In this document: one piece after another, positions 587 through 20,305 of the stretch
Layout of the letters: the number at the start of each line of letters is the position of its first letter
Numbering within the stretch: the stretch's first letter is position 1
Source of the DNA: a virus
IMG/VR virus record: IMGVR_UViG_3300028654_000063
Span: 1-26,185 of that record
Direction: 5' to 3' (one strand)
Length of the DNA stretch: 26,185 bases
Notes under the pieces: model-generated
Seen by the model: the letters and a program-made list of their open reading frames with translations, nothing else
Database searches by the model: none
Told to the model about the DNA's origin: nothing
Position numbers and translations under genes: made by a program

Positions 587-602
587 GATTCATCCTTAAA
601 TC
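587..602 (-). promoter_or_regulatory. AAGGAU-loop hairpin over the ribosome binding site
   Basis: On the minus strand GATTT-AAGGAT-GAATC directly abuts the ATG at 586. It folds as a 5-bp stem (one G-U) that presents the Shine-Dalgarno in a six-base loop. This is one member of the repeated AGGA-loop set described in the findings. Confidence 0.5.
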
Positions 603-688
603 ATTTGTATTATTAAGTAATTTTTCCTTAGAGTACCTTTTCATTCCAATGATTGTCGCACCCCTATTACTATATCACATCGCTATTA

Positions 689-1069
689 TTACGTTATGGT
701 GAATGTCCACCATCGAGCTGCCGTCACATTAGGTGGTGTTGCTGCATCGAAATTAATAATAAATATTTGTGGTACTGTTAAAGTTGTATTGTATATCATT
801 TGACCGCTAATGTCTGGTATTCCGGGCGGTAACGGAATAGGTGATGGTGTATAGTAAGGCACATAAAGTGCAGCAATGTCGGCTGCTTGCGAATCAGTCA
901 ATGGCGGTATCATAATGCCTTCACTTTTATAATTTACCTGTAACGCCTGAAATAAAGAAGCAAAGCCAAGACTCCAAAATGGACTAAAATTACCTTCTTT
1001 ATCAACTACCGGAAATTCTCTAGGCAAATCTGGAAATATTCCACTAAATATACTGTTAGTTGTTGGCAT
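689..1069 (-). CDS. hypothetical phage structural protein, 126 aa
   Basis: The gene starts with MPTTNSIFSGIFPDLPREF and has AAGGATATACAAAAG before the ATG, a good ribosome site. The protein is acidic to neutral and rich in aromatic residues, Pro and Thr, with a Pro-rich stretch near residues 74-87 and a beta-like C-terminus (TLTVPQIFIINF, ending WWTFTIT). There is no membrane segment or catalytic motif. It lies between the gp10-like gene and the ejection-type gene, where P22 carries the tail-needle gene 26. It shows no heptad-rich needle signature, so I do not assign that role. A small virion or tail-accessory protein is the best inference. Confidence 0.65.
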   Translation of the reverse strand: MPTTNSIFSGIFPDLPREFPVVDKEGNFSPFWSLGFASLFQALQVNYKSEGIMIPPLTDSQAADIAALYVPYYTPSPIPLPPGIPDISGQMIYNTTLTVPQIFIINFDAATPPNVTAARWWTFTIT

Positions 1070-1278
1070 CTTTTGTATATCCTTAGTGTTAACTGGGGTT
1101 AAGTTCTATATAACATTCTTCTTAAAAGTTCTTAACATTTAATTCTATGTCTAATACAGTACTTTCCCACATCTTTAAAATATAATAACTATATGATTTT
1201 TATATATTTTTAATTACTATACATAAAAACAGGCTGCATAATAACAATAATAAATAATATATATTTATATTATTATTA
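1070..1278. other. very AT-rich intergenic spacer
   Basis: This 209-base gap after the gp10-like gene is mostly A and T, with runs of TATTAT and ATATAT that can pair imperfectly near 1225-1285. No start codon with a ribosome site and a useful frame was found. It may act as a weak terminator or pause for the gp10 transcript, or hold an AT-rich promoter for the 126-aa gene. No convincing -35/-10 pair is visible. Confidence 0.4.
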
Positions 1279-2994
1279 TTATATGCGAACGTTTGCAATT
1301 CCATCCGTTACAACAAATCGCCCCATACCCCAGAACTTAAACTGAGGAACAAAATCATTTGCAATACCGCACTGCCACCACATCAATCGATTCTTTCTAT
1401 GACCAATTGCTGGCAGATAATAAGCCCACTGATTACCAAATGAAGCCCCGCCATCGGTAGATATAGATAAATCTACATGAGGCAAGGATAGATCACCAAA
1501 ACCCGTATTTGCATCTTGTTGTGCGATTAACCAAGCTTCTGTACCTGCAGCATTGTTTTGGGAAACTATCAGATCAAAATCTTGAGTTTCTAAGTAATTG
1601 AAGTTTTGATAAATCAAGCCAATAAAATCACCTTGAGTTTCTAAGATCAAACCATCTTGAGTTATAAAAATAATCTCACCTAATGATTGTTGCTGGTAAT
1701 CTGTTTCACCGGATTCAATCGTAAAACCTACATCATTGATGACGTGATATTCCTGATCTGGACTGCGTATATTTGCACAGGTTCTTATTCTAGGTATTTC
1801 ATGATTCTCTAGTTCACCAACTCTATTTACATCTTGGTACGTATAAAATTGAGTATCGAATGCATATAAGTTGCCATTGTTTCGTGAAACAAAATAATAT
1901 TGGTTATTAATGTAGGCCACTTCGGACGCAATGAAGTAATTAAGATCCTGGTCAGATGCATGATAGAATTTTTTAGTGATGAAATCATAAAAAAGGGAAA
2001 GATTATCGCTATAGAAATTAATATGGTAAAAGAGATGGCCATCTTGACGATAGAGGAAGGCTTGAGAATCTTCAGGATTCTGTAGTGTAGAAAAAAGATA
2101 ATCAATCCCGTCCGTAGTAATCTTCTGAGGCATTCCACCATTTGAATAAACGATAATTGGACCAGACTTCTCATTCTGAGCGAGCCATACGACCATTTCA
2201 TCCATATACGCAACTGTTGCAGGTGATAGACATCCATAATCAATGTTAAATTGAGTAGTACGTTGGTAAGGAAATAATTGCGCGCCAACATTAAACCATG
2301 CCTCCGTAACGATACTACCCATAACAAATATCATATTACCTTTAGATGGGAAACGCACTACAGCTTTGGTATTATCTGGTTTCGTTGATAAGAGTCCAAT
2401 CTTAGATGATGTAGATGGCCAACTGGTACCTTCATTACTGTCAGACAAACGCCAAGTATTATTTACGGGTGCCCCCTTATAAGTATCTTGACTGGCTGCT
2501 AGTATGAAGTATGTATCATGGAATGTAAGATATCCAGGCGTGAAATTAAGTGGTACGGCTTGAAATACCGGGGTTAATGATGGGTCATAAATATAAAATG
2601 CTGTTCCGTCTGATATACCAATTTGAGGTTTATTATTTTCAGCGATGTAAACTACGCCTGTTTGCGTTTGCAATGTTCCAATCAGTATCACCTGTTCAGA
2701 GATAACACGTTGTTGTTGCTGTGAAAAATTGATAGTAACCAGATAAACATTAGAGCCTATTACTACGACCATTTTCCCAAATTTGGTGCTTGTGAAAACC
2801 GCTCTTCCTTCTGTTCCATTATTAAATTCATTTGATCGAACGCCAACTTTGTATCCTGCGTAAGGCACCATGAAGTCATCGCTAATAAACATGTTGTAGG
2901 TCTTCTCTACGCTTATCTTAGGATATCTTCCGAAGATGCTAGAGCCTACTATGTTTATTGGAATTTGTTTGAAATTCTGGCCTCTTGTTATCAC
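1279..2994 (-). CDS. P22 gp10-like packaged-DNA stabilization / head-completion protein
   Basis: This 571-aa protein matches the P22 gp10 family, which plugs the portal-tail channel after packaging. The family style is visible in the N-terminal line about a named set of values (SVEKTYNMFISDDFMVPYAGY), the repeated beta-propeller-like strands, and the block around residues 215-300 containing FPSKGNMIFVMGS, QFNIDYGCLSP and MVVWLAQNEKSGP. It is somewhat longer than P22 gp10 (about 470 aa), with a C-terminal extension (IESGETDYQQQSLGEI, ending FVVTDGIANVRI). The start codon is GTG, with AAGGA ten bases upstream inside a strong hairpin. It follows the gp4-like gene apart from the HNH and small-gene insert. 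Assignment is by sequence style and gene order. Confidence 0.85.
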   Translation of the reverse strand: MITRGQNFKQIPINIVGSSIFGRYPKISVEKTYNMFISDDFMVPYAGYKVGVRSNEFNNGTEGRAVFTSTKFGKMVVVIGSNVYLVTINFSQQQQRVISEQVILIGTLQTQTGVVYIAENNKPQIGISDGTAFYIYDPSLTPVFQAVPLNFTPGYLTFHDTYFILAASQDTYKGAPVNNTWRLSDSNEGTSWPSTSSKIGLLSTKPDNTKAVVRFPSKGNMIFVMGSIVTEAWFNVGAQLFPYQRTTQFNIDYGCLSPATVAYMDEMVVWLAQNEKSGPIIVYSNGGMPQKITTDGIDYLFSTLQNPEDSQAFLYRQDGHLFYHINFYSDNLSLFYDFITKKFYHASDQDLNYFIASEVAYINNQYYFVSRNNGNLYAFDTQFYTYQDVNRVGELENHEIPRIRTCANIRSPDQEYHVINDVGFTIESGETDYQQQSLGEIIFITQDGLILETQGDFIGLIYQNFNYLETQDFDLIVSQNNAAGTEAWLIAQQDANTGFGDLSLPHVDLSISTDGGASFGNQWAYYLPAIGHRKNRLMWWQCGIANDFVPQFKFWGMGRFVVTDGIANVRI

Positions 2995-2997
2995 GTT

Positions 2998-3015
2998 TAA
3001 ACCATCCTTGGTTTA
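2998..3015 (-). promoter_or_regulatory. AAGGAU-loop hairpin at the gp10-like start
   Basis: Minus-strand TAAACC-AAGGAT-GGTTTA is a perfect 6-bp stem that displays the Shine-Dalgarno in a hexaloop, three bases before the GTG start. The same arms recur at the gp4-like gene (5226-5245), with AAGGAC in the loop. Confidence 0.65.
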
Positions 3016-3021
3016 TTTAAT

Positions 3022-3255
3022 TCATTCTATTTCTATCAATAATCCATGATTATTTGCATTATTATTTATTTTTCCCACTACTTTATACCTGCACCCCATT
3101 ACACAAAAAATTTTATTTACAGCAGCCATATTGGATTTAAAGATTATAAATTTTTTTTCATAACTTGTTATTGAAATCAATCTTGCCTTAATAAGACTTT
3201 CAATACAAATTTTTTGCTTTATTTTTTTCCATTTATTTTTTAGATTCACAATCAA
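3022..3255 (-). CDS. small basic hypothetical protein, 77 aa
   Basis: This open frame of 77 codons is very rich in Lys, Ile and Asn, with no recognisable domain. No ATG opens it: the frame begins after a TGA with TTG at 3255, and an internal GTG lies two codons later. A weak AGG precedes either start. It sits just downstream of the third copy of the repeated leader (3265-3281), in the same position as the two small genes upstream, which supports its being a gene. In another frame the repeat's own ATG gives only a 13-codon peptide. The low-complexity composition and lack of ATG leave real doubt; the alternative is a decayed gene. Confidence 0.4.
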   Translation of the reverse strand: MIVNLKNKWKKIKQKICIESLIKARLISITSYEKKFIIFKSNMAAVNKIFCVMGCRYKVVGKINNNANNHGLLIEIE

Positions 3256-3264
3256 ACAACCTGA

Positions 3265-3281
3265 GTTGAATCATCCTTGAT
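3265..3281 (-). repeat. repeated leader element, copy A
   Basis: Minus-strand ATCAAGGATGATTCAAC, identical over 17 bases to the copies at 3492-3508 and 3700-3716. ATC and GAT can pair around an AAGGAT loop. Here the downstream GGAG of the other two copies is changed to CAGG. Confidence 0.7.
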
Positions 3282-3291
3282 ATTTATGTGG

Positions 3292-3480
3292 TTAAATAAT
3301 CCATTTAAATCCATGAGCCATTAAACTCAACAATCCTACAAATCCTGTGCCCATCAATCCGAGCATCCACCGTTGATTAGACATAATTTGCTTCAATGTT
3401 TCATTGAAACTGTCATTCTTTTGCTTTAATAGTTCAATATTTAACTGCTCTCTTGTGAAATATTCTGTTTCTTTACTCAT
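3292..3480 (-). CDS. small coiled-coil plus C-terminal membrane-segment protein, 62 aa
   Basis: I place the start at 3480 (MSKETEYFTREQLN) because CTGGAG lies seven bases upstream. The neighbouring gene uses the same GGAGTTATYC leader, so a start at 3501 would leave the GGAG inside the gene. Residues 8-40 form a polar, heptad-like helix (REQLNIELLKQKNDSFNETLKQIM). Residues 43-58 are a hydrophobic segment (WMLGLMGTGFVGLLSLMA). This layout of an amphipathic helix followed by one C-terminal membrane helix is like XhlA-type accessory or small holin-like phage proteins. Function is inferred only from topology. Confidence 0.6.
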   Translation of the reverse strand: MSKETEYFTREQLNIELLKQKNDSFNETLKQIMSNQRWMLGLMGTGFVGLLSLMAHGFKWII

Positions 3481-3491
3481 GAATAACTCCA

Positions 3492-3508
3492 GTTGAATCA
3501 TCCTTGAT
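3492..3508 (-). repeat. repeated leader element, copy B
   Basis: An exact 17-base copy of the leader at 3265 and 3700. In this copy the stem extends to AATC/GATT around AAGGAT. It precedes the GGAG ribosome site and the ATG at 3480. Confidence 0.7.
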
Positions 3509-3519
3509 TTAATTAACTC

Positions 3520-3687
3520 TTATGTTAAATGTACTGCATGCAAGGCAATTGGCGCTAAAATAACTGTAAAAATTGCACCGCAAACAGTCATGATTATATT
3601 GAGTTTTCGATTCAATTGCTTATAACATAACTCTTGCATTCTTATTCGAACTTCATGATCTATGAACACTTCTCTTTCTTCTATCAT
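3520..3687 (-). CDS. small single-membrane-segment protein, 55 aa
   Basis: The frame MIEEREVFIDHEVRIRMQEL, ending LHAVHLT, runs from ATG at 3687 to TAA at 3520. The ribosome site CCGGAG is well placed. The first 28 residues are a charged helix; residues 31-51 are a membrane segment (IIMTVCGAIFTVILAPIALHA). Topology is the same as in the 62-aa neighbour, so the two may be a pair of small inner-membrane or lysis-accessory proteins. The start overlaps the stop of the homing nuclease gene as ATGA, which suggests translational coupling. No homology is claimed. Confidence 0.6.
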   Translation of the reverse strand: MIEEREVFIDHEVRIRMQELCYKQLNRKLNIIMTVCGAIFTVILAPIALHAVHLT

Positions 3688-4316
3688 TGGATAACTCCGG
3701 TTGAATCATCCTTGATGTGTTTGTGTTGCTTTAGGTATTGTATCGCTGATTCTAGTAGATTGATATTGTCTTTAAACTTTCCTAAACCAGTATTGCACCC
3801 ATGACATAATAAACCTCTTATTTTTCCACTATCATGACAGTGGTCAATAGCTAATCTGCATATTCCGCCGTTCCTGCTTTTTCGTGTTTCCTCATTGCCA
3901 CATATAGCACATAAGTTCTGATGCTTTCCTAACAATGACTCATAAACGTCTAAGGTTATGCCCAATTGCCTCAAAGACTCATGCACGCTATTTTTTTTCC
4001 AATGTTTCTTTTTTGATTTTTGAACCCATTCTTTATATTTTTCGGGATGTTCTTTTTTATCTTCTCTAGCCCAAATATTTGCTTTTGGTTCAATGTCAAT
4101 TATGCCTTCTCTATATAGTTTCCGTGCTTCATTTCGCGCCGTACATGCCGATGCATTATGCTTTTCTCTATTCTCTTCTTTCCATTTTCTATCTTTATTA
4201 AGTTTGCATAATCTACATCTTAATGTATAGCCCCGCTTAGCTGATTTGTTTGGTTCTATAATAATATTTTCTTGTTCCAATTCACCATGAATCTTGCAAG
4301 TTTTTTCGTGTTGCAT
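3684..4316 (-). CDS. endonuclease VII-type HNH homing endonuclease
   Basis: The 210-aa protein has a Cys-rich N-terminal part (C34xxC37 in RCRLCK) and a very basic middle. Its C-terminal domain is of recombination endonuclease VII type: CAIC at 136-139, IDHCH at 157-161, CHGC at 171-174, then GLGKFKDNINLLESAIQYL. These are the zinc ligands and catalytic His of the beta-beta-alpha-Me fold. It is inserted between the gp4-like and gp10-like genes, a place where phages often carry free-standing homing nucleases. It has its own promoter, and a hairpin that can hide its GAGGT ribosome site. Its last eight codons are made from copy C of the repeated leader, so its 3' end was fitted onto the next gene. 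Host-DNA or rival-phage cleavage is inferred. Confidence 0.85.
   Translation of the reverse strand: MQHEKTCKIHGELEQENIIIEPNKSAKRGYTLRCRLCKLNKDRKWKEENREKHNASACTARNEARKLYREGIIDIEPKANIWAREDKKEHPEKYKEWVQKSKKKHWKKNSVHESLRQLGITLDVYESLLGKHQNLCAICGNEETRKSRNGGICRLAIDHCHDSGKIRGLLCHGCNTGLGKFKDNINLLESAIQYLKQHKHIKDDSTGVIQ
3700..3716 (-). repeat. repeated leader element, copy C (inside the homing nuclease 3' end)
   Basis: The same 17 bases as copies A and B, followed by CGGAGTTATCC. It codes the end of the nuclease while serving as leader for the 55-aa gene. Confidence 0.7.
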
Positions 4317-4323
4317 TTTGTTA

Positions 4324-4344
4324 CCTCTGTAAATAAAACAGAGG
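4324..4344 (-). promoter_or_regulatory. hairpin that sequesters the homing-nuclease ribosome site
   Basis: Minus-strand CCTCTGT-TTTATTT-ACAGAGG is a perfect 7-bp stem with a 7-base loop. The 3' arm contains the GAGG of the ribosome site for the ATG at 4316. In any transcript that enters from upstream, the site would be paired. Confidence 0.75.
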
Positions 4345-4346
4345 CA

Positions 4347-4375
4347 ATAATATGCAATTTACATAAATTTGTCAA
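4347..4375 (-). promoter_or_regulatory. consensus sigma70 promoter for the homing nuclease
   Basis: On the minus strand TTGACA (4370-4375), a 17-base spacer, then TATTAT (4347-4352). The predicted start of transcription falls near 4339-4340, within the 5' arm of the hairpin at 4324-4344. The RNA from this promoter should therefore lack most of that arm. Confidence 0.75.
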
Positions 4376-4441
4376 GGACTCCTTCCCTCAATATTTGAAT
4401 AAATTATAATCTAATTCAATCTATATTGTATTAAAAATATA

Positions 4442-5224
4442 CTAATTGCGCCATCCGTGACCAATATTGACGTCGCCCCAGTTGTAGCCAGGGTTGGAGT
4501 CCGCATAGAGAATCGACAGCTTTTTCCCAGTAACATCAGGTGGATCTTCATACATCAATTTACGCTTATAACTGTCCAAAATCTTCTGTGATTGAGGATT
4601 GAATACGATCCCGTATTCCGAGCACATAAAAGCTGCGAGACTGTAGCGCAGATACTCCAAATAAGCCGTGTCATAGCCCTGAATCCCATTATTAATAAAA
4701 GTATACGGCGTGTAGTATTGGACGTTGTACGTATTAACAAAGCTTGCAGTCACATCTTGCATGTCGGTTTGAAGGTCTACATCAACTAAAAAGATTTTAG
4801 CCTTCATCTTCATGGGGTATGGTTTATCTGGAATGAAGTAGGTTGCAAAGGTTCCACCACCAACACCCCGTTCGTAGTTCCATGAAAAAGGGAGCGTATA
4901 GATGTTATCAACGCGTGAGGAGCCGAAGTAATTGCTACGACTTGTAGAGACCATAGGATAGCGTACTACGCCAATGTTAAAGGTTGAGGTCTCAATTGCT
5001 GCAACATAGGGTAGAAAATAATATTCTTGAGTAGGCACTGCATTAAACGTAATGTATTGCCAATAAGGAATTAAATCGGTTTCAATTTGTTTGAAGTTCA
5101 ACAAGTCGTTCAGCATGTGCAGACCGTCGTAAATCTGGTCGCCTGTAGGAACTTGTAGATTTCGCGCTACGATTCCAGAAAGAAACCAAGAGCGAGTTAT
5201 TAAATCTTGCGCTGTATAGGCCAT
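4442..5224 (-). CDS. P22 gp4-like tail accessory / head-completion protein
   Basis: The 260-aa protein begins MAYTAQDLITRSWFLSGIVARN. Its TGDQIYDGLHMLNDLLNFKQ block is typical of the gp4 family, whose members bind the portal ring and begin tail assembly. The start at 5224 is preferred over the in-frame ATG at 5254: AAGGAC lies nine bases upstream of 5224, and the earlier ATG would run through the ribosome-site hairpin. The middle is rich in Tyr and Phe; no lysozyme motif can be seen. It follows the 288-aa structural gene and precedes the homing nuclease. In P22 the order coat-4-10 is the same, which supports the call. Confidence 0.8.
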   Translation of the reverse strand: MAYTAQDLITRSWFLSGIVARNLQVPTGDQIYDGLHMLNDLLNFKQIETDLIPYWQYITFNAVPTQEYYFLPYVAAIETSTFNIGVVRYPMVSTSRSNYFGSSRVDNIYTLPFSWNYERGVGGGTFATYFIPDKPYPMKMKAKIFLVDVDLQTDMQDVTASFVNTYNVQYYTPYTFINNGIQGYDTAYLEYLRYSLAAFMCSEYGIVFNPQSQKILDSYKRKLMYEDPPDVTGKKLSILYADSNPGYNWGDVNIGHGWRN

Positions 5225-5225
5225 G

Positions 5226-5245
5226 ATAAACCGTCCTTGGTTTAT
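5226..5245 (-). promoter_or_regulatory. AAGGAC-loop hairpin at the gp4-like start
   Basis: Minus-strand ATAAACC-GTCCTT complement-GGTTTAT: a perfect 7-bp stem that shows AAGGAC in the loop, one base before the ATG. It shares its arms with the gp10-like leader. Confidence 0.7.
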
Positions 5246-5247
5246 GT

Positions 5248-5279
5248 AGACCATCCCGAGACCATGCTCGAAATGGTCT
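5248..5279 (-). terminator. intergenic stem-loop (terminator or processing hairpin)
   Basis: AGACCAT (5248-5254) pairs with ATGGTCT (5273-5279), with an inner CGAG/CTCG stem. There is no U tract on the minus-strand side, so a pause or RNase processing site is as likely as a terminator. Confidence 0.5.
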
Positions 5280-5287
5280 TATTTTAC

Positions 5288-6154: not shown

Positions 6155-6180
6155 GATTTTTCCTCAATTTGTTAAGTTAA

Positions 6181-6219: not shown

Positions 6220-6226
6220 CTTCCAA

Positions 6227-7543: not shown

Positions 7544-7586
7544 TTGTATAACTCCTAACTAGAATTAAGCTAGGACTCAGGCGGGT

Positions 7587-8312: not shown

Positions 8313-8623
8313 CGTTCCTTCTAGCTATTTCCCCGCCACGGTAACGCCTCTGCCTATCGAACAGGTCTCGAACTATTACGCCGTCACGCTAAAAATCTAC
8401 CCCACATAACGCGTGAGTTTCGTTGTGGGTCGCAATCCTTTGCTGCCAATCCTTGGCTCCCACACTGACAATGTAGACAAAGAATTGATGTCACTCAACG
8501 AAGGGTATAGAGCGGTATGAATCAGTATGTCTTTTGCACAACAAATATTAATGTCGCGTTTGTTTATTTGAACTAAAATGGTTATTGATTACGGAATAAC
8601 AGATGATTGAAAGGAAAATTAAA
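8313..8623. other. 310-base intergenic region between scaffold and the plus-strand cassette
   Basis: It holds the structured element at 8401-8464 and must hold the promoter of the plus-strand gene at 8624. Candidate -10 boxes such as TAAAAT near 8573 are present, but no convincing -35 partner was found. No open frame with a ribosome site was found on either strand. Confidence 0.5.
8401..8464 (-). ncRNA. two-hairpin AGGAU element with mutually exclusive pairings, upstream of scaffold
   Basis: Read on the minus strand, TGTGGG (from 8459-8464) and CCCACA (from 8424-8429) enclose two hairpins, GCCA-AGGAT-TGGC (8445-8457) and GCA-AAGGAT-TGC (8432-8443). The same CCCACA can instead pair with TGTGGG from 8401-8406, extended by an ACG/CGT pair. 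The element lies 90-150 bases before the scaffold start. It looks like a regulatory leader; the plus strand of this region also carries the cassette promoter zone. Confidence 0.6.
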
Positions 8624-9130: not shown

Positions 9131-9322
9131 ATGCTTACAATTAATGGTGAAAAATACTTGGTTGAAAAAGAGGCATCATCCAAATACGGACTTTCGATAC
9201 ATTGGTTTAGACGGACACGTTATGAAGGCAAAAGTCCTCCATATCATAAATTGAATGGAAAAGTATATTACCGAGAACATGATGTTGATGAATGGTTTAA
9301 AGCAAATATGAAACCAAATTAA
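9131..9322 (+). CDS. small excisionase/AlpA-like helix-turn-helix protein, 63 aa
   Basis: MLTINGEKYLVEKEASSKYGLSIHWFRRTRYEGKSPPYHKLNGKVYYREHDVDEWFKAN follows the MerR-superfamily HTH_17 plan: a first helix with a gap (SSKYGLS), a recognition helix (HWFRRTRYEGKSPPYHKL), then a wing (GKVYYREHDVDEWF). Such proteins include excisionases and AlpA-type activators. There is no integrase in the window, so excision is not implied. It starts four bases after the upstream gene's stop; the end of that gene (GAAGAGGAATAGGGC) can supply the ribosome site. The two genes form one transcription unit. Confidence 0.75.
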   Translation: MLTINGEKYLVEKEASSKYGLSIHWFRRTRYEGKSPPYHKLNGKVYYREHDVDEWFKANMKPN

Positions 9323-10690: not shown

Positions 10691-10704
10691 TAATGTCCTT
10701 ATTA
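10691..10704 (-). promoter_or_regulatory. AAGGAC-loop hairpin before the fibre-like gene
   Basis: Minus-strand TAAT-AAGGAC-ATTA is a 4-bp stem with the ribosome site AAGGA in its loop, five bases before the ATG at 10685. Confidence 0.5.
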
Positions 10705-11743: not shown

Positions 11744-11807
11744 TTCAAACTTTCCTTTTTAACCATTTTACGAATTAATATTTCATCTTTTTTTTCATCA
11801 GCATGAT

Positions 11808-12005: not shown

Positions 12006-12006
12006 T

Positions 12007-12021
12007 TGACACTCCTTGTCA
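12007..12021 (-). promoter_or_regulatory. AGGAG-loop hairpin at the His-rich gene start
   Basis: Minus-strand TGACA-AGGAG-TGTCA is a perfect 5-bp stem with the Shine-Dalgarno as its loop, one base before the ATG at 12005. It also overlaps the stop codon of the preceding gene. Confidence 0.6.
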
Positions 12022-14729: not shown

Positions 14730-14743
14730 GTAGCAGCTCCTTT

Positions 14744-14761
14744 AAGAGAATCCTTTCTCTT
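14744..14761 (-). promoter_or_regulatory. AAGGAU-loop hairpin upstream of portal
   Basis: Minus-strand AAGAGAA-AGGA-TTCTCTT is a perfect 7-bp stem (or 6 bp with hexaloop AAGGAT). It lies 15 bases before the ATG and just ahead of the real ribosome site AAAGGAG. Confidence 0.65.
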
Positions 14762-14789
14762 TATAGTTTTATTGTAGCTTAATAATTAA

Positions 14790-16334
14790 CTATTTTGTAT
14801 AAGCATTTTTCCTTAGCCGGCTTAAATTAACTTGATTCATTGTTAGTGACTTAGCCATTTGGTCATAATCGGTAGCTTTGATATGAGCTGCAATAAGAAC
14901 TTTATCAATGAGCGCCATTCGAATTGCGTCTGCACATGTATCTGCGATGTCATCCCAACGATGCGTTTCATTTGCGGTAATTTTGCTCATATGTTCTATA
15001 CATAGTTTCACGTGCCTGCCTGACGCAGGAAAAGAAACTCTGCGTTCTGCTACATATGGCTGCACTTCAAGAAATCTTTTTGTTTTATTCCCTTGCTCTC
15101 TAGTTCTGGGGATGTCCATTAGCGTTACTGTGCGTATTTCGTCTAAAAGACTAAGCAATGTACCTCCGGTTGATTTCTTTTCAATAGCAACCATTTGAGG
15201 GGGTCGTTTATATCTCATACATTGTTGCCAGAAATCTAAAAATGTTGGCTTCAAATCTTTTGGCTCAATTCGAGTTTCTAATGTATCAATCCAGTGTACT
15301 CCATATTTACCGGTTTTAATGCCAAAAGATTCAATCTCATATACACCCCAGAAACTAAACACGGTTGCATCATTGTAACTCTTTGCTGTTTCTGCGGTAT
15401 CTGCTGTAATAAAACTATACAACACATTGGGCTCATCTTCCAGCATGACGAACCATTCGGGTTTGAATAATGCACCACCTGCAGGTATAGGATTCTGCTG
15501 ATACTGGCTTGCAAACACATAAGGGTCTGTTTCTTGTTTCGTTAAAAGCATCTCCAAAGGATTAACTTCTGGATACATGGCATTTCCTGCGCCATCAATG
15601 CTTTCTAAAATGACTTTGTGCCAATCGTAACCGTCTTTGCCTTCAATCAGATAGGCTGCTAGGTCATCTTCATGAAGTCTTTGACCCAAGAAGATTGTTG
15701 GGACATTAATTCCTCTCGCTCGCTGCTGGATAGTTTCGCGATAGTTATCAATAACCGAGATTCTAATAGTATCAGAATGTACTTCATCTGGCTTATGAGC
15801 ATCGTCGATAATAACAGCCCCTGAAAATCGCGCCAATCCGGGCAGACCTGCATCTTGTCCCGTGATTGCTCCGCCACTTCCGAAAGCAGCAACCGCGCCT
15901 CCAGCAGTTGTTTGGAAATACTCTCTGGCTTTTGAATCATGTCTAATCCTTACGTCAAATAGATATCCATAGGTTGAAAGCTGCATGATACGTTTGATTG
16001 TTTCAGTATGTTTTGCAGCCAACACTTTTGAATAGGAAATATATAGAAATCGTGAATCTGGGTACTTCGCCATAGTCCATGCGACCCACATGGCCAGCAA
16101 TGTTGATTTTCCTGAGCCAGGACTTACGTTAATTAATAATTTATGATTAGGTATTTCAAGACGAGCAGCCTGTGTTAGCGCTTCACTAATAATGAGGTGA
16201 TGAGATTGTCTGCCCTTTGGATTTGAGACGATAAAACTTCTACCCGTAAGCAACGAATAGAAGTATTTTGTAAACTCAATAAGACTGCCTTTGAGTTTCG
16301 CTCTTAAGCGAAGGCGATCATCATTTTCACTCAC
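14790..16334 (-). CDS. terminase large subunit (ATPase and nuclease)
   Basis: The 514-aa protein has a Walker A box SPGSGKST at residues 71-78, a Walker B strand VIIDD at 174-178, and a coupling motif region near 212-220 (TIFLGQRLHED). A C-terminal RNase H-like nuclease follows, with acidic residues in ITADTAETAKSYND and RWDDIADTCADAI. It drives DNA into the head through the portal ring and cuts the concatemer. The start is GTG at 16334, eight bases inside the end of the 171-aa gene, with only a weak AGG nearby. That makes translation coupling to the upstream gene likely. The family resembles the Terminase_6 group. Confidence 0.9.
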   Translation of the reverse strand: MSENDDRLRLRAKLKGSLIEFTKYFYSLLTGRSFIVSNPKGRQSHHLIISEALTQAARLEIPNHKLLINVSPGSGKSTLLAMWVAWTMAKYPDSRFLYISYSKVLAAKHTETIKRIMQLSTYGYLFDVRIRHDSKAREYFQTTAGGAVAAFGSGGAITGQDAGLPGLARFSGAVIIDDAHKPDEVHSDTIRISVIDNYRETIQQRARGINVPTIFLGQRLHEDDLAAYLIEGKDGYDWHKVILESIDGAGNAMYPEVNPLEMLLTKQETDPYVFASQYQQNPIPAGGALFKPEWFVMLEDEPNVLYSFITADTAETAKSYNDATVFSFWGVYEIESFGIKTGKYGVHWIDTLETRIEPKDLKPTFLDFWQQCMRYKRPPQMVAIEKKSTGGTLLSLLDEIRTVTLMDIPRTREQGNKTKRFLEVQPYVAERRVSFPASGRHVKLCIEHMSKITANETHRWDDIADTCADAIRMALIDKVLIAAHIKATDYDQMAKSLTMNQVNLSRLRKNAYTK

Positions 16335-16842
16335 TTAAAGCAAACCTAGCAGACATCTTTTCCTTTTTAGTATATGCTTCTTTTAAAGAAGTATAATATG
16401 TAACATTATTGATAATAAAGTTTAAGTCTTCTTTATTATCAATATTAAATGCAGCAACTTGAATTCCATCAACAGAAATTAAATCATTAATAATGGGGCA
16501 GCATAAATACCAAATTTTATCACCAATTTTGAGAGGTGATTTTTCTTGTACTTTAGTGATTTCATTAATAATGTCTGGCTGAATTTTTCTTAAAATCCAA
16601 TGCGATTGAACTCCATCTGCCCATTTTTCAACTTCAATTTCTAATCCATATTTTTTTAATTCATCACGAGAACTAAAACGGGAGCTCGATGGATTTTTAT
16701 TACCAAGTAATTTAAAAAGCTCAAAAGTAAAAATTCCCTTTGGTCTTGCTGCAAGTGCTTTAACTAAATTTCGTTGATTTCTTGGCAAATCGCGCTCAAG
16801 TTCCCACGGCACAACAATTACTTCATCTGTAACATTTTCCAT
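16327..16842 (-). CDS. hypothetical protein between TerS and TerL, possible winged-helix, 171 aa
   Basis: MENVTDEVIVVPWELERDLPRNQRN starts after AAAAGGAAAGAAA, a good ribosome site. Residues 22-85 (RNLVKALAARPKGIFTFELFKLLG and EVEKWADGVQSHWILRK) look like a small winged-helix domain. The second half (KIGDKIWYLCCPIIND onward) may be a separate beta fold. It overlaps the TerL start by eight bases. Proteins here are often terminase helpers or DNA-binding regulators. It lies right after the structured RNA at 16883-17014. No family is recognised. Confidence 0.6.
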   Translation of the reverse strand: MENVTDEVIVVPWELERDLPRNQRNLVKALAARPKGIFTFELFKLLGNKNPSSSRFSSRDELKKYGLEIEVEKWADGVQSHWILRKIQPDIINEITKVQEKSPLKIGDKIWYLCCPIINDLISVDGIQVAAFNIDNKEDLNFIINNVTYYTSLKEAYTKKEKMSARFALSE

Positions 16843-16882
16843 TTTCTTTCCTTTTACTAGTTTAAAATCCGTTTAAATTAGT

Positions 16883-17014
16883 GAGGGGCTTTCACCCTCT
16901 TCAATCCATATTACTGCCGACTCTTGCAGAGCACGTAAGAGCATTTACCTGTCTAAAGTGACAGCAGCTCATTTGGGGCGTGTGCTTGCGCCCATCGGTC
17001 ACCATTAACGGTGA
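16883..17014 (-). ncRNA. multi-hairpin structured leader before the 171-aa gene
   Basis: On the minus strand five perfect 5-bp hairpins follow each other: TCACC/GGTGA, GGGCG/CGCCC, CTGTC/GACAG, CTCTT/AAGAG and GAGGG/CCCTC. The third lies inside an outer GAGC/GCTC pairing. The segment is clearly richer in G and C than its AT-rich neighbours, and no open frame with a ribosome site was found. It is either a noncoding RNA or a long regulated leader. No known family is recognised. Confidence 0.55.
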
Positions 17015-17046
17015 TGACTGAATTATGGAGACATCCTTTCATAAAG

Positions 17047-17352
17047 TTAGATTAAATTCTTTTTGTATTCTATTGCTGCCTCAGTAATCTCAAGATACTC
17101 TTCTATTCGCTTAAGCCACTTCAAATCATCTTCTATAATATTATCTATTATTCTAATCATTTTAACACGAGACGAATCTAAAAAAGAAAACATCCCATAA
17201 TCGTCTTTATATTTACTGAGGCATATTATTAACTCATTTTTACATTTCTTTACGTTATTTATTTTTTCTAAAGAACGTTGTCTATCATCTATTAATTTTT
17301 CTAGTGACATGTCTTTTATTTTTTCTATTTGTTCTGCTGTTAAAGTATACAT
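17047..17352 (-). CDS. hypothetical helical protein, 101 aa
   Basis: MYTLTAEQIEKIKDMSLEKLIDDRQRSLEKINNVKKCKNELIICL, ending YLEITEAAIEYKKNLI, is Lys/Ile/Glu-rich and almost wholly helical, with several coiled-coil-like heptads. The ribosome site is AGAGAGATAT at 17352. It is encoded in the AT-rich insert between TerS and TerL, directly downstream of the tRNA-like element. No motif or family is seen. It is probably an accessory gene. Confidence 0.55.
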   Translation of the reverse strand: MYTLTAEQIEKIKDMSLEKLIDDRQRSLEKINNVKKCKNELIICLSKYKDDYGMFSFLDSSRVKMIRIIDNIIEDDLKWLKRIEEYLEITEAAIEYKKNLI

Positions 17353-17368
17353 ATATCTCTCTTGTTAA

Positions 17369-17505
17369 TGGTGACAATCGACGGGAATTGCACCCGTTAA
17401 AGGTGGCCACCTCAGTGATAAGAATTTTATGGAAGGAGGCCATTACATTGTATTCCAAAATTCGTCTTATCTATGCGCTATAGTGCTGTCTATAGTACGA
17501 TTGTC
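17369..17505 (-). ncRNA. 137-nt tRNA-like RNA with 8-bp acceptor and CCA end
   Basis: Read on the minus strand the ends GACAATCG and CGATTGTC pair over 8 bp and are followed by ACCA. A 5-bp T arm (ACGGG-TGCAATT-CCCGT) abuts them. Near the 5' side CTATAG-ACAGCA-CTATAG gives a 6-bp D-like arm. A long middle arm follows (GATAAG/CTTATC, AATTTT/AAAATT, GGAA/TTCC), then a GGTGGCCACC variable arm. The T loop lacks the usual TTC, and the middle arm is about 30 nt too long for an anticodon arm. It is a tRNA-like fold, not a normal tRNA. Confidence 0.65.
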
Positions 17506-17509
17506 GTAT

Positions 17510-17566
17510 TGGCTCCGCGTGATGGAATCGAACCACCACTAGAAAACTCTCCATTTAAACTGTTTT
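17510..17566 (-). pseudogene. 3' half of a tRNA, overlapping the end of the HNH gene
   Basis: The minus strand shows a good T arm (GGTGG-TTCGATT-CCATC), an acceptor 3' strand ACGCGGA and the end GCCA. A 5-base variable region and an AAAAC/GTTTT stem with a 14-base loop precede it. No matching 5' acceptor (TCCGCGT) is found upstream; the last HNH codons run into this region. It is best read as a tRNA cut by the HNH gene, with the 3' part retained. Confidence 0.55.
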
Positions 17567-17973
17567 GCCGTTCGTCTACGATGACAATTACAACATCTGA
17601 TTTCACATTTCTGAATTTCTTCCTTAATCTTTTCTAATGAATTGCAATCACGAACCATTATTGAGATATTTTTATTTTTACTCTCAATTGAAACATGGTC
17701 AAATTCCAAAACTATTGGGTCGTTTTCTCCGCAATCTATGCAAGGATTTTTTTTTAAATAATCATTCACAAATAAATAATTTCTTTCTCTTAGTTGCCCG
17801 TTAGCTTTATGAATCTTTATCCTTCTAGATTTCGATTCTCTATAATGTTTTTTCTGATATATCAACGTACAGCTTTTGCATTTTGGTTGTCGTATATTTT
17901 TTAACTTATTTTTGTACCAATATTCCTCTATGCCTTTTTCTTCCTTGCATTCACTACATACTTTACAGCTCAC
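17539..17973 (-). CDS. small zinc-finger HNH endonuclease inserted in a tRNA cluster
   Basis: The 144-aa protein has an N-terminal Cys cluster (CKVCSEC at 3-9, KCKSC near 31-35) and a basic linker. Its HNH core is CIDC at 78-81, FDH at 91-93 and CCNCHRRRT at 127-135. This is the pattern of free-standing homing nucleases. The start is GTG at 17973, five bases after the tRNA-Asn. Its only good ribosome site, AGGAG, lies in the tRNA's 3' acceptor strand. The end overlaps the 3' half of another tRNA. It may spread by cutting tRNA-cluster sites; that target is inferred from location. Confidence 0.8.
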   Translation of the reverse strand: MSCKVCSECKEEKGIEEYWYKNKLKNIRQPKCKSCTLIYQKKHYRESKSRRIKIHKANGQLRERNYLFVNDYLKKNPCIDCGENDPIVLEFDHVSIESKNKNISIMVRDCNSLEKIKEEIQKCEIRCCNCHRRRTAKQFKWRVF

Positions 17974-17977
17974 GCTT

Positions 17978-18052
17978 TGGCTCCTAGGGTTAGAGTCGAA
18001 CTAACATCTTACAAATTAACAGTTTGTTGCCTTACCATTAGGCTACCTAGGA
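17978..18052 (-). tRNA. tRNA-Asn (GTT)
   Basis: The 75-nt minus-strand cloverleaf is complete: acceptor TCCTAGG/CCTAGGA, D arm GCCT-AATGGTA-AGGC, anticodon arm ACAAA-CTGTTAA-TTTGT with anticodon GTT, variable AAGAT, T arm GTTAG-TTCGACT-CTAAC, then GCCA encoded. It reads AAC/AAU codons. Its acceptor 3' strand doubles as the ribosome site of the next gene. Confidence 0.93.
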
Positions 18053-18059
18053 ATTATAC

Positions 18060-18101
18060 TATAATTAACAGTCAACTGTACTACCATTGTGCTAGCGGGG
18101 A
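18060..18101 (-). pseudogene. 5' half of a tRNA-Asn-like sequence
   Basis: The minus strand shows TCCCCGC, TA, a D arm with AATGGTA and an anticodon-like loop CTGTTAA. It then runs into a 15-base palindrome (18052-18066) and the intact tRNA-Asn. No T arm follows. The 5' acceptor pairs with the 3' half at 17510 at only five of seven positions, so they may or may not be parts of one old gene. Confidence 0.5.
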
Positions 18102-18202
18102 ATAACTCTTTTCTTTTTCTTTTCCAATCTTCTTTTGTTTCGTGCAGACAAGCCTAAATTTGCACCGCCCTGAGGAAGTCCCTTTTTGCATCTTGGCATC
18201 AT
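18092..18202 (-). CDS. very short Lys/Arg-rich protein, 36 aa
   Basis: MMPRCKKGLPQGGANLGLSA continues RNKRRLEKKKKRVIPR. The ATG at 18202 follows the stop of the 67-aa gene by two bases; a second ATG follows. The ribosome site is weak (AGGAG about 15 bases upstream), so translation may depend on the upstream gene. The peptide is strongly basic, like an RNA-binding arginine-rich peptide. Its TAG stop lies within the 5' tRNA-like fragment. A role in nucleic-acid binding would be inference only. Confidence 0.45.
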   Translation of the reverse strand: MMPRCKKGLPQGGANLGLSARNKRRLEKKKKRVIPR

Positions 18203-18204
18203 TT

Positions 18205-18408
18205 TCAAAACCAAATCTCCTTTTTACCATCTATCTCTGGTGCTGGCTCAGGAACGCCACAGAAGTAAGCATAAGATACATGAGCATATGTATATCCCGC
18301 ATCGAGTAAATCAGTTAAGTCGCACTTATGTTGTTCTGTTAGCTTTCTGCCACATTCATTCTGGCAATTAGGACTACCACAATAGGTTCGGTCTAAATAA
18401 TAGGTCAT
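18205..18408 (-). CDS. small Cys-rich, possibly zinc-binding protein, 67 aa
   Basis: I start at 18408 (MTYYLDRTYCGSPNCQNECG), where GGAGG is placed ten bases upstream. The in-frame TTG at 18411 is not needed. Cysteines at 10, 15, 19, 29 and 50 suggest a zinc or structural knuckle, and a Pro/Glu-rich tail ends GKKEIWF. The ATG overlaps the upstream TGA as TGATG, so it is coupled to the 74-aa gene. Function unknown. Confidence 0.65.
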   Translation of the reverse strand: MTYYLDRTYCGSPNCQNECGRKLTEQHKCDLTDLLDAGYTYAHVSYAYFCGVPEPAPEIDGKKEIWF

Positions 18409-18632
18409 CAAAATACCTCCAGTCGTGATTCATAGACTTGAGGCAATGATAAAGGATAGCCTTCGGAACTGTCTAGCAGTGAATCCAATTGCTTTTCTAA
18501 GTCGAGGAGTGCGGATTTATAGCCTGTATTGTAACCACATGCGAAACTTGCAGCATCTTGATGTGTTAAGGTCGGTAATTTGTTCGCTATATCAGCTAGC
18601 TTGCTATCAATCCAACTGTTTAATAATGCCAT
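18408..18632 (-). CDS. small hypothetical protein, 74 aa
   Basis: I start at 18632 (MALLNSWIDSKLADIANKLP), just after AAAGGGAATTGAA. The longer frame to 18800 would translate the structured RNA zone at 18664-18774 and is rejected. The protein has an N-terminal amphipathic helix, an Ala/Gly/Ser middle (AASFACGYNTGYKSALLDLEKQLDSLLDS) and a short C-terminus ending ESRLEVF. Its start follows the paired three-way-junction RNA, which may regulate it. No family is recognised. Confidence 0.6.
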   Translation of the reverse strand: MALLNSWIDSKLADIANKLPTLTHQDAASFACGYNTGYKSALLDLEKQLDSLLDSSEGYPLSLPQVYESRLEVF

Positions 18633-18663
18633 TTCAATTCCCTTTAAATTAGTTGCCCCTTTT

Positions 18664-18774
18664 TGCACACCACAGGGGCGATGGCCGACAATCCTTGTCG
18701 AAATAGTGCATAATTCTATGCCCATTCTGCACGCCGTAGGGCTGACGGCCAACAACCGAGGAGACCGGTGTGCA
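18664..18774 (-). ncRNA. tandem pair of 47-nt three-way-junction RNA units
   Basis: Units 18728-18774 and 18664-18710 are each 47 nt long, 17 nt apart and about 60% identical. On the minus strand each has an outer TGCAC/GTGCA stem with two inner hairpins. Inner stem GCCGT/ACGGC in one unit becomes GCCAT/GTGGT in the other, so pairing is kept by paired or wobble changes. The other inner stem is ACCG/CGGT or CGACA/TGTCG, the latter with an AGGAT loop. The minus strand is favoured, since its wobbles would be A-C mismatches on the other strand. Confidence 0.65.
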
Positions 18775-18779
18775 TTTAT

Positions 18780-18849
18780 CTTTACACTCTGTTGAAACAC
18801 TTCAAACTTTGGCGGTGAGAATGTTTCAACAGGGCAGTGTGCTGTAAAG
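18780..18849. other. long extended dyad next to the tandem RNA
   Basis: CTGTTGAAACA (18789-18799) pairs with TGTTTCAACAG (18822-18832) over 11 bp, and CTTTACA (18780-18786) with TGTAAAG (18843-18849) over 7 bp outside it. The loop is 22 bases. It could be the 5' end of the tandem RNA, a terminator or a protein site. There is no U tract on either side. Confidence 0.5.
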
Positions 18850-18911
18850 AATTCTATTAAATCTTTTATATTTCACGTATATTACACTTAAATTTATTAT
18901 TCAATTTATTT

Positions 18912-19037
18912 ATGAAAATAATTACTCTAACAGTAGTATTTTTACTTACTTCTTGCAATGTTCCGCCCAATCAGAACTGTAAATCTAAAGGGACTGGTGA
19001 GATTGAGCGCTTGTTCTTTAATCAGTGCAAGAGTTAA
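18912..19037 (+). CDS. candidate 41-aa lipoprotein on the plus strand
   Basis: MKIITLTVVFLLTSCNVPPN continues QNCKSKGTGEIERLFFNQCKS. It has a basic start, a hydrophobic core and a lipobox LTSC with Cys at 15, so signal peptidase II cleavage would leave a 27-residue lipoprotein with Pro and Cys. Small Pro-bearing lipoproteins of this kind include the outer spanin Rz1 and bacteriocin lysis lipoproteins; I do not assign either. There is no Shine-Dalgarno before the ATG, and its stop overlaps the end of the convergent 89-aa gene. No signal of its own promoter was found. This is a modest-confidence call. Confidence 0.4.
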   Translation: MKIITLTVVFLLTSCNVPPNQNCKSKGTGEIERLFFNQCKS

Positions 19038-19303
19038 TCAGGCCTCCTGGGCTTGTTTCGTTCAATGATTTTTGCTGCTAATTCCAAGATTGATGCATCG
19101 TGCTTCTGCATTTGATGCGAATGCTGCATGACCTGCTCAGCAAATTGAGCTGTTTTCTGTACATTTTTTAATAATTCAATCTGTGCTGTTAATTTTTCTA
19201 TTTTTCTATTCAACGAGCTGAGGTCTATGCAAATTTCTTTAATACTTATTTCACTGTAATCATAATCGTGTAAGTCAACATCCTGCGGTATTTCATTAAT
19301 CAT
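19034..19303 (-). CDS. hypothetical coiled-coil protein, 89 aa
   Basis: MINEIPQDVDLHDYDYSEISI begins an acidic N-terminus, then heptad-rich helix at 28-60 (LSSLNRKIEKLTAQIELLKNVQKTAQFAEQ), then a His/Met-rich segment and a basic tail ending RNKPRRPD. The ribosome site AAAGGAAGAAAGATA is strong. It is the second gene after TerS. An assembly or regulatory adaptor is possible; no family is recognised. Confidence 0.6.
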   Translation of the reverse strand: MINEIPQDVDLHDYDYSEISIKEICIDLSSLNRKIEKLTAQIELLKNVQKTAQFAEQVMQHSHQMQKHDASILELAAKIIERNKPRRPD

Positions 19304-19322
19304 TATCTTTCTTCCTTTATAG

Positions 19323-19386
19323 ATACCCGCAAAATAAAAATTTATTCGGAATGTATGACTAAATTCAATAATGATTATGCGGGTAT
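19323..19386. repeat. 9-bp inverted repeat between late genes
   Basis: ATACCCGCA (19323-19331) and TGCGGGTAT (19378-19386) are perfect complements around a 46-base AT-rich loop. It fills the gap between the 68-type and 89-aa genes. It may be a weak terminator, an RNA structure or an operator. Confidence 0.45.
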
Positions 19387-19392
19387 GTTCTT

Positions 19393-19593
19393 TTATTCTT
19401 CTTCGTAATCGTAAATGTTATCGACAAATTCGGTAAGCTTTTGCTTTGCTTCGTCTTTACTTAATCCAGATGTTTTCAATGCAGAAATATAAGCTGCGCC
19501 GCAAAGTGCGAACATCAATGGCCCATCTTTTGGGCCGTAAGATTCTAGGAAATCAATCAGTTCTAGTCTTAAATCGATATTTTCTTCGTCCAT
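19393..19593 (-). CDS. small acidic helical protein, 66 aa
   Basis: I start at 19593 (MDEENIDLRLELIDFLESYG), where AAAGGA is eight bases upstream; the longer frame would use TTG. The protein is acidic and helical (DGPLMFALCGAAYISALKTSGLSKDEAKQKLTEFVDNIYDYEEE). The ATG overlaps the TerS stop as TGATG, so the two are coupled. It may be a TerS partner, but no family was recognised. Confidence 0.65.
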   Translation of the reverse strand: MDEENIDLRLELIDFLESYGPKDGPLMFALCGAAYISALKTSGLSKDEAKQKLTEFVDNIYDYEEE

Positions 19594-20054
19594 CAACAAT
19601 CCTTTTTATATTCTTCTTCTAGTTGCTTCTCATGTTCCAATGCTTTTTGGCTTTCTGCTGCATGTGATGTGTCAATTTCGTTTTTAACATCACCGAACTT
19701 CTTGGGCTTGAGCTTTCCTGCTTGCCATTTCATTGTGTCCATCTTAAGACGTAACATCGGAACATCGACTCGTATTTTTCCAGTGTCTTTTTCTTCATAA
19801 AGATGAGATTCATTCATTAATTCTTGCATATATTCAACACAAACTTCAGTCTGTTCTTCTTTGGCCTTTTCGTATTTAACTCGAAAGTCCTCATGCTTGC
19901 GACGCCATTTAAATATGTTTGACCTGTCAGGCCAATGTGGATTGGCATTGCATAAATGCATTAAGCCAAGCTCAGATGAGGCGATTGCTTCGCATATCTC
20001 ATCGCCTAATTCAGGCGTATATTTTGTAGGTCTTCCGACCTTCTTAGTAGCCAC
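19593..20054 (-). CDS. terminase small subunit, Sf6 gp1-like
   Basis: The 153-aa product MATKKVGRPTKYTPELGDEICEAIASSELG follows the Sf6 gp1 plan: an N-terminal GRPTKYTPEL helix-turn-helix, the middle SNIFKWRRKHEDFRVKYEKAKEE, then RLKMDTMKWQAGKLKPKKFGDV and a variable acidic tail. Small terminases bind the packaging site and hand DNA to TerL. The start is uncertain: GTG at 20054 has GAGG six bases upstream, while GTG at 20066 overlaps the previous stop as GTGA without a ribosome site. TerL is more than 3 kb away, which is unusual. Confidence 0.85.
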   Translation of the reverse strand: MATKKVGRPTKYTPELGDEICEAIASSELGLMHLCNANPHWPDRSNIFKWRRKHEDFRVKYEKAKEEQTEVCVEYMQELMNESHLYEEKDTGKIRVDVPMLRLKMDTMKWQAGKLKPKKFGDVKNEIDTSHAAESQKALEHEKQLEEEYKKDC

Positions 20055-20062
20055 AATGCACC

Positions 20063-20290
20063 TCACCCGTTGTTATAGGTATCTTCGAATAGCTTAACAG
20101 CTTTTTCGCGTGATAGGTCTGGATCTGAGGCCATAAGCTCTTTTATTGCATCTTTATACGCTTTACTCTTCTTATCAATCTTCTTTTCTTTAGACTCATA
20201 ATTGCCATCGCCTTCACAAGTAGAACAATCAATCTTAATCATTCCATTGCCATAAATTTCACCGGTACCACCGCATCTACTACAAAACAT
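20063..20290 (-). CDS. small DnaJ-like zinc-motif protein, 75 aa
   Basis: MFCSRCGGTGEIYGNGMIKI carries CxxCGGTG (C3, C6) and DCSTCEGDG (C22, C25), the same spacing as two half-knuckles of the DnaJ Cys-rich domain. A Lys-rich helix follows (YESKEKKIDKKSKAYKDAIKELMAS). Such short zinc-knuckle proteins are common next to phage terminase genes. The start is in a hairpin whose loop is the ribosome site. It is the first gene of the late operon in this window. Zinc binding is well supported by motif; the biological role is not known. Confidence 0.75.
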   Translation of the reverse strand: MFCSRCGGTGEIYGNGMIKIDCSTCEGDGNYESKEKKIDKKSKAYKDAIKELMASDPDLSREKAVKLFEDTYNNG

Positions 20291-20291
20291 A

Positions 20292-20305
20292 AGCTATCCT
20301 TAGCC
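20292..20305 (-). promoter_or_regulatory. AAGGAU-loop hairpin at the zinc-motif gene start
   Basis: Minus-strand GGCT-AAGGAT-AGCT (one G-U) puts the ribosome site in a hexaloop, one base before the ATG. Confidence 0.5.

Follow-up and report, generated by a model that had tools for sequence, protein, structure and literature searches.

CsrA and its relatives RsmA and RsmE are translational repressors that recognize A(N)GGA in the loop of a short stem at or near the Shine-Dalgarno (SD) sequence, as in hcnA and similar leaders and in the stem-loops of RsmZ. The high-affinity form of the CsrA/RsmE site is an ANGGAX hexaloop (PMC4005645), an RsmZ hairpin with AAGGAU in its loop binds RsmA with a Kd of 276 nM (PMC4066749), and CsrA dimers bridge sites that lie 10-63 nt apart (PMC10746276). 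Alleles of csrA are also borne by phages and plasmids, being present in 30 of 2517 phage genomes (PMC7366521), and in the Bcep22-like podovirus JC1 the gene lies between the portal and major capsid genes (PMC9144972). Those reports describe the protein as a "moron" and leave its targets open. A further precedent for one post-transcriptional regulator acting on many phage ribosome-binding sites is the control of T4 mRNAs by RegA and RegB, although RegA sites lack conserved structure and RegB acts mainly on early genes (PMC3014915). Here we describe a group of P22-like phages in which small RNA hairpins that hold GGA in the loop are found at or just before the start sites of several virion genes, so that CsrA may control when structural proteins are made. 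The candidate sites differ from known CsrA targets in being on phage virion genes, several per genome, and in that many of the loops are closed by A-U and fold as 4- or 5-nt loops. They differ from the reported phage csrA alleles in that candidate targets are found in the phage's own virion genes, mostly in phages without a csrA, and from the RegA and RegB sites in being conserved stem-loops on virion genes.

The sequence analysed, referred to as the window, is the whole 26,185-nucleotide stretch of IMG/VR record IMGVR_UViG_3300028654_000063. A preliminary description of the window reported recurring AGGA-loop hairpins in minus-strand leaders, and this observation is confirmed, as each listed element is present in the sequence. 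All window features given here are on the minus strand. The hairpin at 585-604, AUGAUUUA-AGGA-UGAAUCAU, has 8 bp with one G-U and a minimum free energy (MFE) of -5.2 kcal/mol. Its loop is the SD and its 3' arm reaches the AUG of the ejection-type gene, and similar leaders occur in five related loci (L081, L107, L023, L067, and L006). Over the SD of the gp10-like gene (1279-2994) is the hairpin UAAACCA-AGGA-UGGUUUA (2998-3015; core CAAGGAUG), which has 7 bp rather than the 6 first described. The gp4-like gene has AUAAACC-AAGGAC-GGUUUAU over its SD (5226-5245, 7 bp), and the His-rich gene has UGACA-AGGAG-UGUCA over its SD (12007-12021, 5 bp), with too few relatives of the latter to test. The zinc-motif gene (20063-20290) carries GCUA-AGGA-UAGC over its SD (20292-20305), which extends at 20291-20306 to 4 bp plus a G-U. 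In the portal leader, the 7-bp hairpin AAGAGAA-AGGA-UUCUCUU (14744-14761) instead lies upstream of a separate SD, the GGAG at 14737-14740, which is 14 nt after the hairpin GGA.

Other sites are weaker. The element over the SD of the fibre-like gene, UAAU-AAGGAC-AUUA (10691-10704), has only 4 A-U pairs and is not predicted to fold in this phage, although stems of 5-7 bp are found in many relatives. Three related 29-nt leaders are repeats of one another. One contains AAUCA-AGGA-UGAUU (3496-3509) upstream of the SD of ORF 3292-3480, and the others contain the weak copies AUCA-AGGA-UGAU at 3270-3281 and 3705-3716. A hairpin absent from the earlier list, UUUAAA-CGGAU-UUUAAA (16861-16877), is upstream of the SD of gene 16327-16842. 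Element 18686-18700, CGACAA-GGA-UUGUCG, has 6 bp but is not seen in the relatives examined and is not in the predicted fold of its surroundings, and it was dropped for lack of support. Element 8432-8457, in the scaffold 5' leader, is two adjacent hairpins, GCCAAGGATTGGC and GCAAAGGATTGC, of which the first (GCCAAGGAUUGGC) is at 8445-8457 and the second (GCAAAGGAUUGC), conserved with compensatory changes, is at 8432-8443. A possible outer stem, UGUGGG (8459-8464) with CCCACA (8424-8429), would enclose both (8424-8464) and is seen by eye in the window and in several relatives, but it was not the predicted MFE fold. Not every late gene has a hairpin, as coat, TerL, TerS, and most small genes of the window do not.

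Whether shuffling would give as many hairpins had been named in advance as a condition that could overturn the proposal, and it did not. For GGAs in minus-strand leaders, stems of at least 5, 6, and 7 bp number 6, 4, and 3, against 0.63, 0.15, and 0.03 expected with shuffled arms, and 0 of 300 shuffles reach this, while the plus strand shows little excess (4 versus 3.7 at 5 bp or more). The MFE z-scores of single hairpins are modest (-0.5 to -2.1, with fibre positive), so folding energy alone does not make the case and covariation does. In 79 related IMG/VR loci, late-strand GGA-loop hairpins number 166 against 46 expected, and GGA is the most enriched of 64 loop cores (140 versus 40), although the relaxed loop and stem definition was chosen after the finding had been seen. 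In contrast, nine other P22-like phages and prophages, which share homologous portal and, where checked, other virion genes, show almost none (9 versus 6.7). These controls include Vibrio D478, Thalassomonas BA3, Pseudomonas PAE2, APSE-2, and Rickettsiella prophages. An exact search of IMG/VR with the 16-mer AAACCAAGGAYGGTTT gave 86 stretches, which we judge not informative in itself because chance alone could give a number of that order, and Rfam gave nothing beyond tRNA and one sub-threshold overlap with it.

Loss of the stems in homologous phages had likewise been proposed beforehand as a refutation, but the stems persist with compensatory changes. Arms co-vary within phages, and swapping arms between phages destroys the stems for portal, fibre, gp10 (p<0.001), gp4 (p 0.001 for stems of at least 5 bp), the zinc gene, and an opposite-strand HTH gene (e9131), but not for the accessory genes g12349, g12170, g689, and g5288. 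At portal, 6 of 7 pairs are changed on both sides, with 0 of 500 shuffles matching this and all slides lower. Covariation is also seen for gp10 (44 double-change cells), the zinc gene, and the scaffold leader. For fibre, MAFFT shifted the GGA register of several leaders, so this case rests on the ungapped arm-swap test, in which 25 of 38 leaders have a stem of at least 4 bp against 10.8 after the swap. The coat SD itself is not in a GGA-loop hairpin (arm-swap p 0.75-0.91). Coat leaders of many relatives instead have a long stem that pairs the SD, in some with GGA in the loop, and this loop GGA gives p<0.001 at 4 bp or more and 0.095 at 5 bp or more.

The loops are (A)AGGA followed by U or C, close to the CsrA/RsmE consensus A(N)GGAX. 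Among 87 hairpin sites, A is at position -2 in 82 and U or C follows GGA in 74, against 128 of 245 for GGAs not in hairpins. The sites also have the expected position, as the loop is itself the SD in gp10, gp4, fibre, and the zinc gene, and the spacing from the portal hairpin to the SD GGA is 10-17 nt in 17 of 19, within bridging distance. The fit to the high-affinity hexaloop is mixed and does not settle the matter either way. It is exact for gp4, where AAGGAC sits on C-G, but holds for gp10 only if the top A-U opens, while portal folds as AGGA or AGGAU closed by A-U. Many loops take such tetraloop or pentaloop forms, which are expected to bind less well than a hexaloop unless that pair opens.

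A search for csrA in the host or the rest of the phage had also been suggested at the outset. CsrA genes over the Pfam cut-off (PF02599) were found in 3 of 36 longer related records, L173, L174, and L175, with E-values of 1e-20, 5e-19, and 1.5e-14. These proteins have the conserved N-terminal MLxL.R and the basic residue aligned with R44, and those of L173 and L175 have PDB matches to CsrA. Two further hits are weak or truncated and sub-threshold, L176 being one that falls below the cut-off. The csrA of the L174 phage has GCAC-AGGAU-GUGC 19 nt before its own SD. However, CsrA is absent from the 26-kb window and from a 35-kb relative (L003), and the relative with the strongest CsrA (L046) has no stem of at least 4 bp in the leaders recovered. 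A portal profile search for the host found misbinned-looking MAG contigs and Rickettsiella prophages at about 46% identity that lack the hairpins, and none in 368 other genomes of the class at E<=1e-100. The protein is encoded by 15 of 16 genomes of the Rickettsiella order that hosts distant relatives, yet the related prophages there do without the hairpins. As the host of the window phage was not identified, these data leave undecided whether a CsrA protein is present in the infected cell.

The earlier interpretation, that the late operon is translationally governed by a host or phage CsrA or by a phage protein of similar taste, is partly supported. "The late operon" is too broad, as the hairpins are carried by portal, tail (gp4 and gp10), fibre, the zinc gene, and, in relatives, one opposite-strand gene, while many small late genes lack them. 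What the computations demonstrate is that short stems presenting (A)AGGA(U/C) are under selection at, or 10-17 nt upstream of, the SDs of several virion genes in this P22-like clade, and that some relatives encode CsrA; that the hairpins are binding sites for a CsrA/RsmA-type dimer is our inference and the best explanation, held with moderate confidence. There are no binding or expression data, and the direction of any effect is not shown. In this view, host CsrA, or the phage's own in some relatives, would occupy the loop. Where the loop is itself the SD (gp10, gp4, fibre, the zinc gene, and the ejection gene), it would block the ribosome, while at portal one subunit would bind the hairpin and the other the nearby SD GGA. 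It is possible that the many sites on abundant late mRNA titrate CsrA, giving a threshold so that virion proteins start together, or that late expression is tied to host physiology through the host's Csr small RNAs. A stronger form of this view, which we consider about as likely as not, is that the clade places its virion genes under a CsrA-type regulon, in which host CsrA, or a phage-encoded CsrA in some members, holds portal, tail, and fibre translation off until late mRNA titrates it or host physiology releases it. This would give phage csrA genes a function in the phage's own cycle. If CsrA binds, virion production is coupled to a global regulator of host metabolism, and the question of what phage CsrA is for can be tested with short leader RNAs.

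Alternatively, the hairpins may be read by a different, phage-encoded RNA-binding protein with a taste for GGA loops, for example the conserved small zinc-motif protein, comparable to Com of phage Mu. The zinc-motif gene occurs in 44 related loci and carries the hairpin itself, as an autoregulator would, and the hairpins are clade-specific although CsrA hosts are common. We consider this unlikely, as no RNA-binding function is known for the zinc protein, the loop and flanks fit the published CsrA/RsmE preference, and CsrA is actually encoded by several clade members. About as unlikely is an effect of RNA alone, in which a small hairpin that presents the SD in a loop, or caps the 5' end of the mRNA, tunes translation or protects mRNA without any specific protein. 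The coincidence of loop and SD in four genes fits this, and in portal leaders a TAYAAT-like -10 lies 20-28 nt before the GGA in 37 of 58, so the hairpin would sit near the mRNA 5' end, as in stabilizing hairpins. However, such an effect would not require GGA in the loop of a portal hairpin that is not the SD, nor favour U or C over G after GGA, and other P22-like phages do not do it. Cleavage by an SD-cutting ribonuclease such as T4 RegB is very unlikely; GGA is at the SDs of many genes under one system and RegB can act on an unpaired GGA, but it needs GGAG/U with an A-rich 3' side and is inhibited by structure (PMC3014915), whereas here C or A follows GGA in 24 of 87 hairpin sites, a stem arm rather than an A-rich run follows, and stems are kept (a regB-like gene was not sought specifically). 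Chance or duplication of one leader is refuted for the main set by the shuffles, arm swaps, covariation, and controls, only the three 29-nt leaders being copies while the rest differ in their arms, as the preliminary description had argued.

The scaffold leader also holds a previously unreported conserved tandem pseudoknot, which is not part of the GGA system. Module 1 (8372-8422) is assigned by sequence similarity, as this window copy was not itself in the alignment, and module 2 is at 8324-8370.

The 26,185-base IMG/VR virus record encodes a P22-like late block on the minus strand, made up of portal, TerL, scaffold, a gp10-like head-closure protein, endonuclease VII, a TerS-like protein, and replication genes, with YqaJ and RecT on the plus strand. 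The preliminary description reported short inverted repeats around AGGA in the leaders of minus-strand (late) genes and from these inferred control of the CsrA/RsmA type. The hairpins that it reported do exist in the sequence. Comparison with shuffled leaders had been proposed as a way in which the observation could fail, and here, among 44 GGAs in minus-strand leaders, 6, 4, and 3 have perfect stems of at least 5, 6, and 7 bp, while shuffling the arms gives 0.63, 0.15, and 0.03, with no shuffle of 300 reaching the observed values. The plus strand shows no excess at 5 bp (4 vs 3.7) and 2 stems of at least 7 bp against 0.26. Two of the reported hairpins are weak, as that of the fibre gene has four A-U pairs and is not predicted to fold in this phage, while that at 18686-18700 is not seen in the relatives examined and is not in the predicted fold of its surroundings. 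The YqaJ leader on the plus strand (24255-24273) also contains a 7-bp GGA hairpin, ATGAAAA-CGGAT-TTTTCAT. Three copies of a 29-nt leader (3253-3281, 3480-3508, and 3688-3716) lie around small genes and the endonuclease VII end, as if shuffled as a unit.

A search with the portal protein finds 79 loci at 45-95% identity. In their coding orientation, over 56 non-redundant loci, GGA is the most over-represented of the 64 trinucleotides in the loops of hairpins with stems of at least 6 bp (140 vs 40). With GGA held fixed and the arms shuffled, the late strand has 166 hairpins against 46 and the other strand 59 against 29. By comparison, late regions of five P22-like phages together with four Rickettsiella prophage stretches have 9 against 6.7, while unrelated viral contigs, which were selected by a pattern that was then masked, have 79 against 53. 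The strong excess therefore belongs to this clade and strand, although a mild general excess exists.

Loss of the stems in related phages had likewise been named in advance as grounds for rejection, but the arms were instead found to change together. When the 5' arm of one phage is combined with the 3' arm of another for the same gene, the stems collapse. For stems of at least 5 bp, the portal upstream GGA has 15 observed vs 4.8, the portal Shine-Dalgarno (SD) GGA 9 vs 1.0, fibre 15 vs 5.8, gp10 8 vs 1.9, gp4 5 vs 0.9, and e9131, a small HTH_17 gene on the opposite strand, 7 vs 1.8 (all p<=0.001 in 1000 swaps). The zinc gene has 5 vs 1.9 (p 0.02), or 13 vs 4.4 (p<0.001) for stems of at least 4 bp. 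The accessory genes g12349, g12170, g689, and g5288 show none. About twenty gene sets were tested, and as such, single p values near 0.02-0.05 should not be leaned on. The HTH_17 gene (9131-9322, plus strand) carries the same GGA hairpin over its SD in many relatives, e.g., TAATTA-AGGA-TAATTA, though not in the window. In the portal alignment, 6 of 7 pairs have changes on both sides and 88% of cells pair, no column shuffle reaches the number of double changes, and every slid register is lower. The alignments of gp10, the zinc gene, and the scaffold-leader hairpin agree. The statement in the preliminary description that the arms differ while loop and position persist is thus now supported by measurement.

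The hairpins are found in two ARRANGEMENTS. In the first, the loop is itself the SD, as in gp10, gp4, fibre, the zinc gene, and the ejection gene. In the second, the hairpin stands upstream of a separate SD, and in portal the GGA-to-GGA distance is 10-17 nt in 17 of 19 cases, mostly 13-15. In 37 of 58 portal leaders with a hairpin, a TAYAAT-like -10 lies 20-28 nt before the hairpin GGA, so that the hairpin would be near the mRNA 5' end. In one relative, L016, the 3' half of the portal hairpin is duplicated (AGGATTTCTCTAAGGATTTCTCT). Within hairpins, GGA is followed by U or C in 74 of 87 cases and by G in 5, while non-hairpin GGAs of the same leaders have G in 62 of 245, a preference that an SD-only need would not favour. 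At the coat leader (about 7554-7574 in the window, and in relatives), the coat SD of many relatives is paired in a long stem (TCCTAACTT..AAGTTAGGA), in some with (A)NGGA(C/U) in its loop.

The published high-affinity site for CsrA/RsmE is an ANGGAX hexaloop on a stem (PMC4005645), an RsmZ hairpin with AAGGAU in its loop binds RsmA with a Kd of 276 nM (PMC4066749), and a CsrA dimer bridges sites 10-63 nt apart (PMC10746276). The gp4 hairpin is exactly AAGGAC on a C-G pair, while that of gp10 is CAAGGAUG. Of 36 longer related records, three encode CsrA over the Pfam cut-off and one a sub-threshold version, and a fifth record is cut off at a contig end within a CsrA-like start. These csrA-like genes of metagenomic P22-like phages (records L173, L174, and L175, and the weak L176 and L200) lie beside replication or small early genes or near TerS. 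The proteins of L173 and L175 match CsrA structures by sequence, and the csrA of L174 has GCAC-AGGAU-GUGC 19 nt before its SD.

Other findings speak against this assignment. Most relatives carry no csrA, and L046, the relative with the best CsrA, shows no stem of at least 4 bp in the leaders recovered. Related prophages (L190-L194) were found in 6 of 16 genomes of the Rickettsiella order, several with stops in the portal frame, and although 15 of 16 genomes of this order have csrA, Rickettsiella prophages lack the hairpins. The interpretation given in the preliminary description is therefore supported only in part: the excess of the hairpins and the co-evolution of their arms come from the analysis itself, whereas a host CsrA is assumed, as the host was not identified and no binding data were obtained. 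It remains possible that another phage protein reads the hairpins, or that they have a protein-free role.

Most likely, CsrA represses, masking the SD where the loop is the SD and bridging hairpin and SD at portal. With many sites per late transcript, accumulating mRNA would titrate CsrA and release the virion genes together, or alternatively, host Csr RNAs would do so. These steps are inferred, and the opposite sign (stabilisation or activation) is not excluded. CsrA control, CsrA hairpins, and phage csrA genes are all known, but no report of CsrA-type sites on phage virion genes was found in the literature searched, which did not extend to subscription papers, and it is the placement of such candidate sites on virion genes that differs from what has been described.

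The scaffold 5' leader (8324-8422, minus strand) contains tandem RNA modules of about 47 nt (CGAGAC..stem..ACCGUNRCGGGG..AAUAGC) with an H-type pseudoknot that is supported by covariation. In an alignment of 33 sequences, 96.5% of cells are paired, and there are 48 double-change cells against 14.5 after shuffling. A search of Rfam gave no match, while similar sequence is present in the scaffold leaders of Rickettsiella prophages. The scaffold protein of P22 autoregulates its translation, so the modules may be its operator; otherwise, they may be a small-molecule or protein sensor. The minus strand also encodes a tRNA-Asn (17978-18052), and relatives carry tRNA-Tyr, Gln, Asn, Met, Pro, or Ile in various sets.
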